Below are positions 1,702 to 14,334 of a DNA stretch of 21,652 nucleotides, one piece after another. Location of the stretch: positions 1 to 21,652 of IMG/VR virus record IMGVR_UViG_3300034072_001404. One strand, written 5' to 3'. Within the stretch, counting starts at the first letter, position 1. The number at the start of each line of letters is the position of its first letter. The position numbers were made by a program, and so were the translations under genes. Under the pieces are notes generated by a model. That model did no database searches. It was not told the DNA's origin and saw only the letters and a program-made list of their open reading frames with translations. This DNA comes from a virus.

Positions 1702-1893
1702 TCAAACCCCCAGCTTGGACACGGGCGGCGCGTTCATACCCTGCGGCCCGGCGAATACCATGGCCGAGGGCGCGAGACGCCGACGCGCGCGTGCGGATGC
1801 GGCAACCGTGGCATCGCCGTTATCGGGCAGGCGGCTGGCTTGGCGCACCGGCACCTTCTCGACCTTCGGCGTCTTCGGCTTCGGTACACACAT
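1702..1893 (-). CDS. Short basic phage protein between terminase and connector
   Basis: 63 aa, beginning MCVPKPKTPKVEKVPVRQAS, then a basic run (ARARRRL) and a C-terminal PQGMNAPPVSKLGV. I cannot name its function. Short proteins with an N-terminal Cys and a PK-P-K repeat are often found beside terminase and portal genes in podovirus-like phages; this is from general familiarity, not a search. No membrane helix or catalytic motif is visible, and it looks mostly disordered. It starts 5 bases after the TerL stop and ends 4 bases before the next start, so it is probably translated as part of the packaging operon. A structural or scaffold-associated peptide is plausible. Confidence 0.6.
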   Translation of the reverse strand: MCVPKPKTPKVEKVPVRQASRLPDNGDATVAASARARRRLAPSAMVFAGPQGMNAPPVSKLGV

Positions 1894-1898
1894 GATCG

Positions 1899-4511
1899 TC
1901 AGCCTTTCAATTCGTCGTAGCGGGTCTCGTCGTAGGACTTGGCCTGCCCGTATACCAGTTGCTCGCGCGAGACCGCCAATCCGCCGACCACGACCTGCCG
2001 TTTCGGGGTGTCGATGTTGGCGTACATCACCGCGTCACCCTTGTCGGTCGAGCGCATGATACGTTTCGCGATCTCGTCCTTGCTTTCGACCTTGATGCCA
2101 CCCTTCACGACCCAGAACAAGGGGGCAGTCAGGTCGGCCAGCAACTCGGCGTCGTCGGGCAGCGCAATCGGGTCCGGGTTCTCGGGGTCGAGGGCCTCGC
2201 GCAGCCGCCAGAGCAGCATCGCGCGCAGGTTGACGAACTTCAGCAGCCCGCGTGCGGCCGTCTCGTTCTCGGCCGACGCTGCGCCGTTGATGGGCACGAC
2301 ATGCACGGCCGCTTCTTCGAGGAAATCGAAGGGGCTGGTCCCGATGCCCACGACATCGAGATGCACGGGCGCGTTGTCGCGCCGGAAGCGGATGACCTGC
2401 GAGGCAGCGAGACTGCCCGAGTTCACGTCGACGCCCTTGATCGCGATCAGCGGTGCAAACCAGCGGCCATGGCGGCGCGAGATTATCATCTTGTCCTTGC
2501 CGGTCGCGCCGAGTGTGCTGCCCATGTTGCCGCCACGGGCCGCGTCAACGCCCATGCTCGTCATCTCGCCAGCCGCATCGCGAGGACGCCAGCGGTTCAT
2601 CGCCGCTTCGACCCACGCGGTCGGGATCAACTGGGAACGATGGTCTTCGGTGCCTGCCATAAAGTCGCCTCGCAGCATCTGGGACCGCAACGGTTCGGGC
2701 AGCGCCTGAAGCTGTGCGATGTAGCCGGATTTCACGTAATACGGGTTGTCGGTGACGCGCGACGTGATGAAGGTCCGCGATTTCGGGGTGACGATTTCCT
2801 CGGGCGCGTACTCGGCCGGGTCGAAGTCGTACACGGGCTTGCCGCCGACGATGACGAACTGCGCGCCGCCGCGCTCGACCGGCAACTCGTAATCGGGGTT
2901 GCCCTGCACCGTGGCGAACCACCGCAACTCGCCGTCCTTGGCCGGGTTCGGGTGCTTCTTGTCCAGCCATGGCGCGAAGAACTTGATGACCCAGCGGCCT
3001 TCGGGCGTGGTCGGCGGGTTGAACGCCATGATCGTGCGGCAACGCTGCTTCGGATCGGCAGAGCGGACCCAGCCCATGGTGTAGCGCACCTGCTTCTCGC
3101 GCATCTGGGTGACTTCATCATAGCAGTTCCTATTGATAAAGCCCTGATTAGTTATATAGTGGTTGGCACCTTCAACCGTGAGATCGAACAATGGCACGAC
3201 ACCAACATCGCAACAGTCCGAAGATTGAACACGAACCGAACGATCAGTGGTTCGTGTTTCCGAGTTATAGGGGTGGGCATACGACCACGTACGGCGGATA
3301 CGTGTGGGAGTTTGTAGGCCCGCATCCTCTAGCAAATAGATGGGGTTTCGTAGCCCAGCACCGGCTGGTGGGCGAAGACCTTGTCGGTCGCCCGCTGCGC
3401 AAAGGCGAAGTCGTTCACCACAAGAACAGCGTGCGTCACGACAACGACCCAGCCAACCTCGAAGTGATGACAGTCGAAGCGCACCGACGCCATCACTGGG
3501 CCGAACTGGCCGACATACCGCGCATCCCGATTGACGAAGACGCGCTGCGATGCGCCCTGCGAACCGAAGGATCGGTGAAAGGCGCGGCGCGCGTGCTCGG
3601 CATCGACCACAACGTGATACGCAACCGGTTTCCTGATCTGTGTGCGCCGTTCCAGCGCCAAAGCCCAACCAAGATCGACGATCCCCGTGATCTCGACCGC
3701 ATCGCGGCGTTCGCGGCTGACCCCGATGTCGGGTATCGCGAGGCTGCGACTGCGCTGAAGATGTCGGCGATAACGATCCAGCGCATTTGCAAGCGGCGTG
3801 GCTGGGTGTGGCAGAAGAAATCTCGTGGCCCGTGGCCTGCTGACGATGTTCGTCGGGAGAACCAGCGCGCCATCCGCAAGGGCCTAAGAGTTGGTGAGAA
3901 ACTCCCTGCACCTGACGAGCGCCGCCAGCCGTAACCAGCACCGCGCTGTCTGTCTTGCGAAGGGCCCGCGTCACGCGGCGCGGCCCTTCCAAGGTATCGA
4001 CCATGTCACCGACAGCAACGTCCTCGACAGGCTTGTACGAGCCGTCAGCCATCCACACCAGCGTCCCGGCCCCGACGCATTTGTGATCGTAATCGACGCC
4101 CTGCTGCTTCTCTTCGTCGCCTTCGTTCTCCAGCCCCGCGAACTCGATCAGCCGGTTGACGCCATCGGGCGTCGAGAAGGCCCATGTCGAGCCTTGCGAC
4201 GAGTAGCCGTCACGCGATCCGAGGATGCCCGCGATCTCCTGCACGAACTTCTTCGTGCTCACCTTCTCCTGACGGATGATAAGCGCGCGCCGGGCCTGCG
4301 TCGTCGCGATCCCCGATATCAGGAACGACTTGCCGCCACCGGCCGCACCGCCGAAGCCGATGATGTCGGCCTCGCTGTCGAAGGCCATGGTCTGCGGCCC
4401 CGGGTTGGGCTTGAAGATCGGCTCGTAGCCGTCAACGGCTGCGTCGAACTCCAGACGCTCCGAGGGCGTCATGTCGTCGCGCAGGCGGGCGATCTGGCTG
4501 GCCGTGTACAT
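1899..4511 (-). CDS. Terminase large subunit, interrupted by an in-frame intein
   Basis: An 870-codon frame. Removing the intein (residues 145-462) leaves a 552-aa terminase of normal size. Residues 55-62 are the Walker A loop (GAAGGGKS). Walker B is rebuilt only after splicing: VDYDHK joins CYDEVTQ, with Asp465/Glu466 (precursor numbering) as the acidic pair. A coupling motif MAFNPP lies at 495-500. The RNase H-like nuclease has its three expected acids: Asp656 (GVDAARGG), Asp719 (HLDVVGIG) and Asp826 (DKGDAVMYA). The enzyme would translocate DNA into the prohead with ATP and cut concatemers. The ATG overlaps the small-terminase stop by one base (TGATG), so the two subunits are probably coupled in translation. 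The precursor should have no ATPase activity until the intein splices, because the insertion splits Walker B. The intein also contains an antisense HNH gene. Confidence 0.92.
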   Translation of the reverse strand: MYTASQIARLRDDMTPSERLEFDAAVDGYEPIFKPNPGPQTMAFDSEADIIGFGGAAGGGKSFLISGIATTQARRALIIRQEKVSTKKFVQEIAGILGSRDGYSSQGSTWAFSTPDGVNRLIEFAGLENEGDEEKQQGVDYDHKCVGAGTLVWMADGSYKPVEDVAVGDMVDTLEGPRRVTRALRKTDSAVLVTAGGARQVQGVSHQLLGPCGWRAGSPDEHRQQATGHEISSATPSHAACKCAGSLSPTSSAQSQPRDTRHRGQPRTPRCGRDHGDRRSWLGFGAGTAHTDQETGCVSRCGRCRARAPRLSPILRFAGRIAARLRQSGCAVCRPVRPSDGVGALRLSSLRGWLGRCRDARCSCGERLRLCAAGDRQGLRPPAGAGLRNPIYLLEDAGLQTPTRIRRTWSYAHPYNSETRTTDRSVRVQSSDCCDVGVVPLFDLTVEGANHYITNQGFINRNCYDEVTQMREKQVRYTMGWVRSADPKQRCRTIMAFNPPTTPEGRWVIKFFAPWLDKKHPNPAKDGELRWFATVQGNPDYELPVERGGAQFVIVGGKPVYDFDPAEYAPEEIVTPKSRTFITSRVTDNPYYVKSGYIAQLQALPEPLRSQMLRGDFMAGTEDHRSQLIPTAWVEAAMNRWRPRDAAGEMTSMGVDAARGGNMGSTLGATGKDKMIISRRHGRWFAPLIAIKGVDVNSGSLAASQVIRFRRDNAPVHLDVVGIGTSPFDFLEEAAVHVVPINGAASAENETAARGLLKFVNLRAMLLWRLREALDPENPDPIALPDDAELLADLTAPLFWVVKGGIKVESKDEIAKRIMRSTDKGDAVMYANIDTPKRQVVVGGLAVSREQLVYGQAKSYDETRYDELKG
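3133..3160 (+). promoter_or_regulatory. Sigma70-like promoter for the antisense HNH gene
   Basis: TTGATA at 3133-3138, a 16-base spacer and TATAGT at 3155-3160, in a locally AT-rich patch, with a predicted start near 3167 and the HNH ATG at 3191. On the other strand the same bases encode the intein C-terminus: TTGATA lies opposite Phe-Ile-Asn of block G, and the -10 lies opposite His-Tyr-Ile of block F. It matches the sigma70 consensus better than any other promoter candidate in this window. It was not tested. Confidence 0.6.
3191..3934 (+). CDS. HNH homing endonuclease encoded antisense within the TerL intein
   Basis: 247 aa. The nuclease core spans about residues 47-102: QHRLVGEDLVGRPLRKGEVV, then HHKN (His76, His77, Asn79), Asn85, NLEVMT (Asn89) and EAHRRHHW. 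This matches the HNH_3-type pattern (HRLV..E...GR.L..GEVVHH.N....DN...NLE.MT..EH...H). Two helix-turn-helix-like segments follow, about 115-147 (GSVKGAARVLGIDHNVIRNRF) and about 165-202 (VGYREAATALKMSAITIQRI), as in homing enzymes with modular DNA-binding tails. The ORF lies wholly inside the intein and fills the interval between blocks A/B and F/G. Its first codons are antisense to block F and its last about 13 codons antisense to block B. ATG at 3191 is chosen; GTGAG about 10 bases upstream is a modest ribosome site. It presumably cuts intein-less terL alleles to drive homing. That role is inference; the nuclease family is clear. Confidence 0.88.
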   Translation: MARHQHRNSPKIEHEPNDQWFVFPSYRGGHTTTYGGYVWEFVGPHPLANRWGFVAQHRLVGEDLVGRPLRKGEVVHHKNSVRHDNDPANLEVMTVEAHRRHHWAELADIPRIPIDEDALRCALRTEGSVKGAARVLGIDHNVIRNRFPDLCAPFQRQSPTKIDDPRDLDRIAAFAADPDVGYREAATALKMSAITIQRICKRRGWVWQKKSRGPWPADDVRRENQRAIRKGLRVGEKLPAPDERRQP

Positions 4512-5020
4512 CAGTCGAAGAGCGACGACGCTTGGACGATCTTGTCGACCTCGCGCGCCTCGATCAGCGCCCGGGCCGGGTTGCGGCGCTGCTCGACGCG
4601 CTTCAGGATCGCGGCAGCGCGCAGAGCGCGTTCCTCGTCAGGCGTCTTCCCTGTGGTGTGGTCGTTGTTCGTGGTCACGTCGACGCGCTTGCCGTAGGTC
4701 TTGGGCTTCAGGTTCTCCGCAGCCCATTGCCGCGACTTGATGCGCTGTTCGGCGATCCGGCAGTCGGTTGCCGTCTTCGCCTTGCCGAACATCTCGTCAG
4801 CGAGGCTCACGACTTCCTCCGCATAGGTGTCGGCTTGGTCCTCGCGAGCGCGTGCATAATTCTCCGCGAACTCCGGTTCGGTGCGCAGCCACTGGTATAT
4901 GGTCTTCATCGAAATCGCGTTGTCGGTTGCGCGCTGATCGCGAACCCATTTCGACAAGGGCGTGCCTTCAGCCAACGCAGCGCAGATTTCGTCGGCGAGA
5001 TCGGGGTCAAATGGTCTCAT
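4511..5020 (-). CDS. Terminase small subunit
   Basis: 169 aa. The N-terminal 55 residues hold a helix-turn-helix-like DNA-binding segment (DEICAALAEGTPLSKWVRD, later MKTIYQWLRTEPEFAENYARA) typical of phage small terminases that recognise the packaging site. The middle (about 56-110) is a helical oligomerisation-type region with RIAEQRIKSRQWAAENLKPKTYGKR, a segment commonly seen in this family. The C-terminal third is charged and ends in SSLFD. The stop overlaps the TerL ATG by one base, and the gene is first in the leftward operon. There is no good Shine-Dalgarno sequence before ATG 5020 (CTCTGGGCT). A weak TTGACG (5063 to 5058, minus strand) lies upstream with a poor -10. Assignment rests on context and the characteristic helical motif. 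Confidence 0.85.
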   Translation of the reverse strand: MRPFDPDLADEICAALAEGTPLSKWVRDQRATDNAISMKTIYQWLRTEPEFAENYARAREDQADTYAEEVVSLADEMFGKAKTATDCRIAEQRIKSRQWAAENLKPKTYGKRVDVTTNNDHTTGKTPDEERALRAAAILKRVEQRRNPARALIEAREVDKIVQASSLFD

Positions 5021-5163
5021 AGCCCAGAGGTAACGCGATTGCGCGCTTCGTTCAAGCCGTCAACGCCGGTCGGGGCATTGGCCCCACGATTTCGCGTTTC
5101 CGCTTTCCGCTTTCCGATTGCCGGGCGACGATTTCCGCTTCCCTTATGTGTAGATTTGTGTGA

Positions 5164-5184
5164 TTGCTATTTTCCCCTATGTGC
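5164..5184. repeat. Left arm of perfect 21-bp inverted repeat
   Basis: Begins TTGCTATTTTCCCC and ends TATGTGC. It is the exact reverse complement of 5310-5330. Read on the minus strand it points toward the small terminase, so both copies face outward from the divergent region. Flanking bases extend the similarity imperfectly by about six positions. Confidence 0.85.
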
Positions 5185-5309
5185 TGGCCTCCCGTTACAT
5201 TTTGTTAGTGTTACACGCATATCCCTATCGCGCGCGATGTTTGTATTGTAAAACACTGTAGAATATGCCACATACCCGCATTAACATAAACATATGGTAC
5301 GAGACACCC

Positions 5310-5330
5310 GCACATAGGGGAAAATAGCAA
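5310..5330. repeat. Right arm of perfect 21-bp inverted repeat
   Basis: GCACATAGGGGAAAA through TAGCAA, exact reverse complement of 5164-5184, with 125 bases between the arms. It lies 30 bases upstream of the first rightward ATG (5361), a position fitting an operator, a dedicated promoter element or an origin-protein site. Confidence 0.85.
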
Positions 5331-5360
5331 GCGCACGAATATATTCTAAAGGAGACCAAC

Positions 5361-6131
5361 ATGCCCAGACCCCGTTCCCCGCTGACCGCCAACGAGATAG
5401 AGTACATCCACAGACGCTTTACCTACGACCCCGAGAAGGGGGAAATCTATCGCAAGCCGGGCAACAAATCCGCCATCCGGCTTCGCGCAGACGGGATGCT
5501 CTATGTCACCGCCGGGTCGAGCCGCAACATCCCCGCGAAAGACGTGGCGTGGTTCCTGCACACGGGAAACCTGCCCGACAGCGCCAGCAAGGTGAAGATC
5601 ATCCAGCGCGAAACCACACGCTGTGCATATGAACTGCGCGCCGACAACCTGTTCCTTGAGACCCCCGACTGCGCGTTCGGTGAAATGCACCTGCGCAGGT
5701 GGCACGAGCAGGAACAGCGCATAGCGGCGCGGGCGAACCTGATCGGCTACGAGACCAGCGACGAAGCCCGGTACGATACCGAACGCCTCGTGGCCGTGGC
5801 GATGGTCAAACTCGCCGCCGACAACATGAAACTCGCGCTCTCGCACGTCGAGTTGAACGAGACCCACTTCCCGTCCGGCGACACCTTGACCGAGAAGAAA
5901 ATCCGGGGGCATCTCGACCACACCATTATCGCCGCCAACGAGATCGCGCGCGTGCAGGGCTGGCAGTTCGACCCGAGCGACGTGCTGCGCCGCCCCGATT
6001 ACGGGGACAGCGTCGACGACTGGCTGTCCTACTACGGTCGCGTGGCCCGTTGCACCGACCCGGCGTTCCGCCATCTCGACGCTGACGCCGTGCTCGCGCT
6101 GCTCGCCCCCAAATCCAGCCTCTTCGACTGA
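5361..6131 (+). CDS. Degenerate HNH-fold (DNA-binding) protein, function unknown
   Basis: 256 aa, first gene of the rightward early operon, with a good AAAGGAG ribosome site. The N-terminal 100 residues follow the outline of phage HNH endonucleases: FTYDPEKGEIYRKPGNKS, then GMLYVTAGSSRNIPAKDVAW and FLHTGNLPDSASKV. The position where such enzymes carry IDHINGDRSDNR reads IIQRETTRCAYELRADNLF, so the catalytic Asp-His pair is absent and only an Asn-Leu pair remains. I infer a nuclease-dead DNA-binding domain. The rest (about 105-256) is helical, with no motif I recognise. It ends in KSSLFD, like five other proteins here. Position suggests an early regulatory or host-takeover role; that is inference. 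Confidence 0.75.
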   Translation: MPRPRSPLTANEIEYIHRRFTYDPEKGEIYRKPGNKSAIRLRADGMLYVTAGSSRNIPAKDVAWFLHTGNLPDSASKVKIIQRETTRCAYELRADNLFLETPDCAFGEMHLRRWHEQEQRIAARANLIGYETSDEARYDTERLVAVAMVKLAADNMKLALSHVELNETHFPSGDTLTEKKIRGHLDHTIIAANEIARVQGWQFDPSDVLRRPDYGDSVDDWLSYYGRVARCTDPAFRHLDADAVLALLAPKSSLFD

Positions 6132-13021: not shown

Positions 13022-13237
13022 TCAGTTGGAGCGGGCGTGCTCTACGACCTGCGCGACATCGCTTTTGACGAGAAGAGCAATGTCGATACCGTATTCACGC
13101 GCCACGATCAACGCGCGAGCCGGGGGCAGGAAGCCCTTGGCCCGGGCGGCGTGGACGAACTCGGCGCTCGTGCCGATTGTCTTGGCCAGCGCGGTGAGAC
13201 TTCCTGCGGCCTTGATGGCCTGTTCAATTCCGTTCAT
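13022..13237 (-). CDS. YdaS/Cro-like helix-turn-helix DNA-binding protein
   Basis: 71 aa. MNGIEQAIKAAGSLTALAKT, then IGTSAEFVHAARAKGFLPPA and RALIVAREYGIDIALLVKSD. The order (GS...LAK.IGTS.E.V..A...GF.PP.RAL.VA...GI) is that of YdaS/Cro-type HTH proteins, where G..P..RAL.....GI follows the recognition helix. RBS GGAG before ATG 13237. It is a candidate for the protein that binds the CTAAC-N6-GTT promoters; that link is inference only. It sits between a 92-aa gene and the helicase gene in the leftward operon. No CI-like partner is in the window. Confidence 0.8.
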   Translation of the reverse strand: MNGIEQAIKAAGSLTALAKTIGTSAEFVHAARAKGFLPPARALIVAREYGIDIALLVKSDVAQVVEHARSN

Positions 13238-13528: not shown

Positions 13529-13722
13529 GCCGCCACTCCCCGCGCCAGTATGCCGTTGGCCTGCGCCACGCTGGGCAGGATCGTGATCGACGCGTTCGGC
13601 TCGATGGCGCGCAGCGCGTCGCGCGCTGCCTCGCGGGCGACCTTTTCGGCGTTGGCGAGATCGCGCTTCGCGCGTTCGTAAGCGCCGAGGCGTTCCTTCA
13701 GGATGTAGACTTCACGCTTCAT
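13525..13722 (-). CDS. 65-aa helical hypothetical protein
   Basis: Start ATG 13722, chosen over a longer upstream frame because it sits behind the CAACCGGAGAA cassette and overlaps the GNAT stop (ATGA). MKREVYILKERLGAYERAKR and DLANAEKVAREAARDALRAI form one long charged helix, probably a coiled coil, followed by EPNASITILPSVAQANGILA. Small phage proteins of this pattern (helix, then SITILP) are usually unannotated. No function assigned. Confidence 0.7.
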   Translation of the reverse strand: MKREVYILKERLGAYERAKRDLANAEKVAREAARDALRAIEPNASITILPSVAQANGILARGVAA

Positions 13723-14231
13723 CTGCTGTTCTCCGGTTGCAGGCGGCATTCCCAGCGGAATTTCGGTAGCCCCATGACCGGCTGGTACTCCCGATCCAAA
13801 TGGTCGTTCTTGCGCCACCCCGGCGCAACAGGTTTGGTAGCACCTGCTTTGCGCCACCCGGCCCCGCGTAGCGATGCCCCGGTCTCGTCCTGAAGTGTGT
13901 ACGAGATTACCAAGTCAAACCCCATCTCACGACAGACCCGGGTACACACCCCGTAAAGGAATGACACCGCGCCTTTCGGCGCGCGCTCGTCGGTGCAAGT
14001 GCGTAAAACTTCGCACACGTACCCGTACTTGTCTTTGTTCATGTAGGTAGCCGAAAGAGGGTTACCCACGATAGCCACCCCCACGATCCTGCCCTCAAAG
14101 ACGCAAGCGACAGCAAACTTACCGCCGTTTCTCGCGGTGCGCCCGTTGTGCCGGTGATGCTCGGCTACAAAATCATTAGCGGCGCGGAGCGTAATAGGCT
14201 TGGCCGTCAAAGTTCTCGATCTTTTGGTCAT
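13719..14231 (-). CDS. XF1762-family GNAT-like acetyltransferase
   Basis: 170 aa from ATG 14231, behind the CAACCGGAGAA cassette; an upstream frame from 14306 crosses the promoter. Features: ANDFVAEHHRHNGRTARNGG, FAVACVFEGRIVGVAIVGNP, LRTCTDERAPKGAVSFLYGV and FDLVISYTLQDETGASLRGA before GWRKAG. These match the XF1762-type family of GNAT-fold proteins found in phages and mobile elements (EHHRH...G, VGVAIVG.P, TDE...ACSFLYGA, ISYT...E.G.SL...GW). The substrate is unknown; the Mom-type DNA-modifying acyltransferases share this fold, so base modification is a possibility but not shown. It is the first gene of the leftward operon. Its last residues (LQPENSR) are encoded by the next gene's ribosome cassette. 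Confidence 0.8.
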   Translation of the reverse strand: MTKRSRTLTAKPITLRAANDFVAEHHRHNGRTARNGGKFAVACVFEGRIVGVAIVGNPLSATYMNKDKYGYVCEVLRTCTDERAPKGAVSFLYGVCTRVCREMGFDLVISYTLQDETGASLRGAGWRKAGATKPVAPGWRKNDHLDREYQPVMGLPKFRWECRLQPENSR

Positions 14232-14257
14232 CTGCTGTTCTCCGGTTGCAGTTGGCC

Positions 14258-14291
14258 CTAACCTGTTAGTTATCTTTTCCGCAGCCGTCAA
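14258..14291 (-). promoter_or_regulatory. Leftward promoter with CTAAC/GTTAG dyad (P5)
   Basis: On the minus strand TTGACG (14291 to 14286), 17-base spacer, TAACAG (14268 to 14263). The near-perfect dyad CTAACAGGTTAG (14258-14269) covers the -10 and uses the same half-sites as the rightward promoters, but with a 2-base centre. It drives the GNAT-to-VapE operon. Its -35 faces a TTGACA on the other strand (GTCAAC-ACCCCC-GTTGAC, 14287-14304). Confidence 0.6.
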
Positions 14292-14299
14292 CACCCCCG

Positions 14300-14305
14300 T
14301 TGACA
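14300..14305 (+). promoter_or_regulatory. Possible -35 of a rightward promoter for a small RNA
   Basis: TTGACA with no dyad downstream; the best -10 at 17 bases (CATCGA) is poor. It is mirrored by the leftward -35 six bases away. Included because a terminator closes the region 60 bases downstream with no gene between. Confidence 0.3.
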
Positions 14306-14334
14306 CACGCCACCGATAAAGGCATCGAGGGGTT

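Follow-up and report, generated by a model that had tools for sequence, protein, structure and literature searches.

The window analysed here, a 21,652-nt virus record taken whole from IMG/VR (IMGVR_UViG_3300034072_001404), carries on its minus strand a gene for the terminase large subunit (TerL) that bears an intein, and on the plus strand of the intein DNA lies a gene for an HNH endonuclease. The TerL gene is a single open reading frame (ORF) of 870 aa (1899–4511, minus strand) that matches terminase large subunit families (phrog_979, E = 2.4e-26); its upstream neighbour encodes the terminase small subunit (4511–5020, minus strand; Pfam Sf6_terminase, E = 2.3e-25). The intein takes up TerL residues 145–462 (318 aa, 954 bp; 3126–4079, minus strand), and the HNH gene, coding for 247 aa, is nested antisense wholly inside it (3191–3934, plus strand), as indicated by its ORF, family matches and predicted fold.

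The limits of the intein follow from the comparison with uninterrupted TerL homologues (L002, which is 83–85% identical to the window protein, and L003, L005, L006, L007 and L010), all of which read ...DYD[HRL]K-x-YDE. Deleting residues 145–462 from the window protein recovers the homologue alignment exactly, and in intein-less viral contigs the sequence ...GVDYDHK runs straight into YDEVTQ with one variable residue between. Given these clean joins, the intein corresponds exactly to 3126–4079 and is inserted one residue before the YDE of the Walker B motif. The first-pass annotation of this DNA, made from the letters alone, had placed the ends at the same positions, had named block A Cys145, block B His206, the terminal Asn462 and the +1 residue Cys463, and had proposed intein-less homologues as a check; these homologues show the same insertion limits, and all four residues are present in the window TerL. 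The +1 residue class belonged to the search pattern that placed the ends, such that only the agreement at Walker B is independent. The residue directly after the intein (3123–3125) is Cys463, where the intein-less relatives have Leu, Ala or Phe; judging from these sequences, the intein appears to be tied to a changed extein residue at +1. About 100 further TerL homologues gathered by extein similarity had no intein at this position; in two of them (L090, L092) there is only an ordinary linker insertion.

The N-terminal splicing half, delimited by model confidence and family alignments (3855–4079, minus strand), contains blocks A and B, with the Cys1 codon at 4077–4079 and the codon of the block B His62 at 3894–3896; TerL residues 145–195 match the Hint domain (Pfam Hom_end_hint, E = 2.3e-4, under the gathering score of this family). 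The C-terminal half, delimited in the same way (3126–3296, minus strand), comprises an HPY motif (3267–3275, minus strand), blocks F and G, a penultimate Arg and the terminal Asn. HPY is present in 30/30 aligned family rows, and we assign it to the Hint domain because related mini-inteins that lack an HNH gene (L223, L224/L226) retain it. In the AlphaFold model of the intein, built with 30 family sequences, the predicted local distance difference test (pLDDT) score is mostly 94–98 at intein residues 1–70, drops mostly below 50 in the middle, and is 87–98 from about residue 261 up to the C-terminus. A Foldseek search with this model retrieved PI-SceI (E = 3e-5), while the DnaB and DnaX mini-inteins matched across both halves with target template modelling (TM) scores of about 0.7. 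The two ends of the intein are thus predicted to form a Hint splicing fold, and the middle, encoded by the stretch antisense to the HNH gene (3300–3842, minus strand), is predicted to be disordered; a profile search of this intein-frame stretch gave no match to any nuclease family.

The plus-strand ORF matches Pfam HNH_3 (E = 1.4e-9) and several phage HNH families (phrog_20891, E = 2.7e-16). Its catalytic core (VHH...DN...NL...H; 3278–3511, plus strand) is defined by the HNH_3 match and by the residues H76, H77, N85, N89 and H98, which are invariant across the HNH proteins of 26 family members. The core is followed by C-terminal helical, putatively DNA-binding tails with two helix-turn-helix (HTH)-like units (3536–3799, plus strand), which are suggested by weak HTH and NUMOD1 matches and by predicted helices. 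In the AlphaFold model (pLDDT 83), the region from about residue 20 to 205 is confident and shows an HNH core and then the helical HTH-like units; a fold search with this model yielded weak partial matches only (I-F HNH Cascade, I-HmuI). The first-pass annotation had described a minus frame devoid of a nuclease between the splicing halves, a full HNH enzyme with two HTH tails on the plus strand, and hence one stretch of DNA that serves a splicing element on one strand and a nuclease gene on the other. This description holds, and the arrangement proved to be kept as a family; we would refine it in that both ends of the HNH gene reach into the splicing blocks.

The window protein by itself retrieved no sister inteins; these were found when IMG/VR was scanned with alignments of the N-terminal splicing block (N block). 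In a profile survey we collected N-block loci with an HNH domain nearby on either strand, an open frame not being demanded. It gave 57 loci with an antisense HNH (some of them on duplicate contigs), in all of which the intein ORF is open through the nuclease gene (57/57; in two the ORF ends at the contig edge) and the relative phase of the two frames is identical. Such antisense HNH ORFs in other inteins had been named in the first-pass annotation as something to be looked for. In each of the 44 distinct measurable members, the HNH ORF lies inside the intein and the host protein reads as TerL; TerL was likewise the host in 10/10 diverse cases checked, and the listed splice junctions fall at the Walker B motif. 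The exteins of family members are down to 20% identical. Cys1 and HPY are kept in 44/44 members and the block B His is invariant in a 30-row alignment. The ending N[KR]N, in place of the usual HN, is found in 40/44, so the unusual terminus of the window intein is characteristic of the family. A shortened member (L153 = L235) has only an antisense HTH remnant left. TerL ORFs with two intein N-block matches also came up (L253, L267, L184).

Searched with four members, the set of 50,697 annotated phage genomes yielded only conventional or split inteins and no relative of this intein family. The 299 genomes of the family to which the genome of Sphingomonas sp. QA11 (L120) belongs yielded three other inteins, all without an HNH. 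As to described precedents, of which the first-pass annotation had named none, an antisense nuclease in an intein was found neither in these annotated phages nor in the open-access literature searched.

A tree built from the splicing blocks groups the antisense members, the HNH-less minis and the remnant in one clade (support 99/91), separate from inteins with a same-strand HNH and from the sampled LAGLIDADG inteins. The minis are nested inside this clade, which fits a loss of the HNH gene. The window TerL is nearer to the intein-less L002 (85%) than to the intein-bearing L150 (62%); such a patchy presence of the intein is as expected of a mobile element.

An open frame antisense to a gene might be a trivial consequence of GC-rich codon use, in which case the arrangement would be meaningless, and other antisense frames of this GC-rich phage are indeed frequently open. 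However, in the phase used here the other genes of the phage have abundant stops. The intein frame crosses the window HNH gene without a stop, while synonymous shuffles of this gene bring in a mean of 5.0 intein-frame stops, and only 0.08–0.15% of them are stop-free (P about 0.001). The third base was never T or C in NTN codons preceding a codon that starts with A (7/7), and was T or C in 28 of 47 cases elsewhere. Over the 44 distinct measurable members, whose HNH genes range in GC content from 40 to 61%, synonymous shuffling predicts 407 intein-frame stops and none was observed. The shuffles, both for the window and for the 44 members, rule out openness by chance, to which we assign a practically negligible probability.

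The codon variation in 22 members of equal length shows which of the two frames is under constraint in each part of the element. In the N block, position 3 of the intein codons varies most (0.47 vs. 0.17 and 0.09); in the core, the most variable one is intein position 2, corresponding to the third position of the HNH codons (0.31 vs. 0.13 and 0.08); in the C block, it goes back to intein position 3. This switch indicates that the core is constrained as an HNH protein and that the ends serve the intein, and in the core the intein frame would need only to remain open. In both overlap zones variation is lower and mixed among codon positions. One of them (3855–3934, both strands), defined by position and by reduced variability of every codon position in the matching part of the 22 relatives, sets the C-terminal tail of the HNH protein antisense to the block B region; in the other (3191–3296, both strands), defined by codon variation and alignment, the HNH N-terminus is antisense to HPY and block F.

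As to the expression of the nuclease, a sigma70-like promoter TTGATA-N16-TATAGT (10/12; 3133–3160, plus strand) can be recognized within the final codons of the intein, upstream of where the HNH gene starts, and a Shine–Dalgarno-like GTGAGA (3178–3183, plus strand) stands 7 nt before the HNH ATG. A promoter-like match occurs at the same position in most family members, with perfect hexamers in two. The promoter is a plausible candidate, and selection for it is weakly indicated by the sequences. Since TerL is on the minus strand and most replication genes of the window are on the plus strand, early and independent expression of the nuclease would be a natural supposition.

We consider it highly probable that a mobile intein occupies the Walker B motif of this phage TerL and that its HNH homing endonuclease is encoded antisense, overprinted on the DNA of the intein. 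The intein limits, the two open frames, the conservation of both and the single antisense clade can be read from the sequence comparisons; splicing, use of the promoter, timing and cutting are what we infer. Translation of the minus strand would give one 870-aa precursor in which intein residues 1–75 and approximately 262–318 fold together as the Hint splicing domain, the antisense-encoded middle being a tolerated disordered loop, and splicing would restore TerL. The plus-strand HNH would be a separate gene, probably read from the sigma70 promoter embedded in the coding sequence of blocks F and G, such that the nuclease is made independently of the late terminase and probably earlier. Once cut by the nuclease, TerL genes that lack the intein would acquire the complete 954-bp unit through repair. 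The element is likely a homing intein in its function, yet without the in-frame nuclease that defines the conventional kind.

Several observations weigh against this interpretation. The window intein has Arg in place of the penultimate His, nearly all members have Lys or Arg there, and the window intein also lacks the block B Thr. The similarities of inteins and of their exteins are strongly correlated (0.93), and there is no clear sign of recent transfer between distant phages; hence transfer, if any, took place mostly among related terminases. Codon resampling showed that the protein motif NHYI...[IV]N[KR]N alone gives 8.4/12 promoter matches against the observed mean of 9.4, that is, it predicts most of the match, which weakens the embedded promoter as a proof of selection. 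The penultimate His is common in inteins but not strictly defining, and its loss, like the weak block B, is shared by the family and does not reflect decay.

Other explanations start from the same data. The HNH gene might be a free-standing parasite of a minimal intein, homing between HNH-less and HNH-bearing inteins while the intein itself is immobile; the minis and the HTH-remnant member of the same family would suit this, as would the related HNH proteins that are found outside inteins as well. However, HNH and Hint similarities are strongly correlated (0.96), the nesting of the minis is more easily read as loss, and the relation between nuclease and intein is identical in every member, so we regard this explanation as unlikely. 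A role of the HNH protein in DNA packaging, or in excluding rival phages by cutting their terminase genes, with homing secondary, seems to us quite improbable. HNH proteins are recurrent terminase partners in some phages according to the passage of PMC10448857 that cites Kala et al., and phages can also compete by means of HNH genes (PMC7468147), but no HNH gene was found in the stretches examined around or next to TerL of the close intein-less relatives.

The insert might also be removed as RNA, being an intron with an antisense nuclease gene, without any protein splicing. Antisense homing endonuclease genes are known in the Didymium group I introns (Dir.S956-2/I-DsqI; PMC9548176), which share with the window a self-splicing element, an opposite-strand homing gene and a proposed internal promoter. 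These introns, in contrast, are removed as RNA and need no open frame, whereas in the window both strands must read as protein; an intron has no need of an open frame, a Hint fold or a terminal Asn, yet all are kept. No Rfam intron match was found in 1800–5400 up to E = 1, and we rejected the RNA intron as very improbable.

In textbook homing inteins splicing and cutting are fused in one protein. The window intein shares with in-frame mobile inteins (LAGLIDADG inteins such as PI-SceI, and in-frame HNH inteins L032 and L033) the Hint domain, a nuclease sequence at the usual place between the N- and C-terminal halves, and insertion into an essential active-site motif; unlike them, it has its nuclease as a separate opposite-strand gene, and the precursor carries the meaningless antisense translation of that gene. 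Dassa and co-workers reportedly described in 2009 genes fractured at split inteins that are accompanied by a free-standing endonuclease. The window resembles these in having a free-standing endonuclease gene between the intein halves in a phage, but the fractured host gene is split into two ORFs and trans-splices, whereas the window TerL, like the host gene in all 57 loci, is one ORF running through the nuclease gene. Among our loci, a split intein interrupts a RecA-like gene in L013–L019 and its two halves flank a gene on the same strand, an arrangement of the fractured-gene type, and the UvsX of Proteus phage Pm5461 looks like the same type.

A second kind of overprinting is seen in TerL-type inteins with a same-strand, frame-shifted HNH (L156, L157, L161, L162, L176, L178, L184, L208, L213, L269, L272, L286, L290, L293, L299). 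As in the window, the HNH gene is overprinted in an intein ORF that stays open: for 18 cases tested, including L191 with its HNH in yet another frame, 39 intein-frame stops were expected and none was seen. An AGGAG-like site precedes the HNH start in several of them. Unlike the window, they have the HNH on the same strand in another frame, a different Hint lineage, ordinary HN endings and another HNH subtype. It seems fairly probable that phages carry a general class of inteins with an overprinted homing nuclease, either antisense with a promoter written into the splicing motif or same-strand and shifted, in which the precursor needs the other frame merely to be open and the nuclease is expressed independently of the host gene.

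Apart from the TerL locus, at least five window genes have Leu-Phe-Asp directly before the stop (4522, 6120, 6517, 16830, 17559), whereas 0.03 such DNA motifs are expected in shuffles. These genes encode the small terminase, two unknown ORFs, a DUF2800 protein and a single-stranded-DNA-binding protein; the common end is possibly a shared docking tail. The window also encodes a Mom-like DNA-modification protein (13719–14306, below the gathering score) and a YdaS/Cro-like HTH protein near the primase (13022–13237).

Gene callers that forbid long overlaps would miss such nucleases, which may explain the absence of this family from annotated phages. The ability of a Hint domain to tolerate a long disordered insert could serve protein engineering. 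The family is a clear natural example of genes overprinted antisense over a long distance (about 210–320 codons in the 44 measured members) and includes HNH-less relatives for comparison, and it shows a way to uncouple the expression of a nuclease from a late essential gene. The two functions of a homing intein would here reside in separate genes on the two strands of one DNA segment, with selection on both frames keeping them together.
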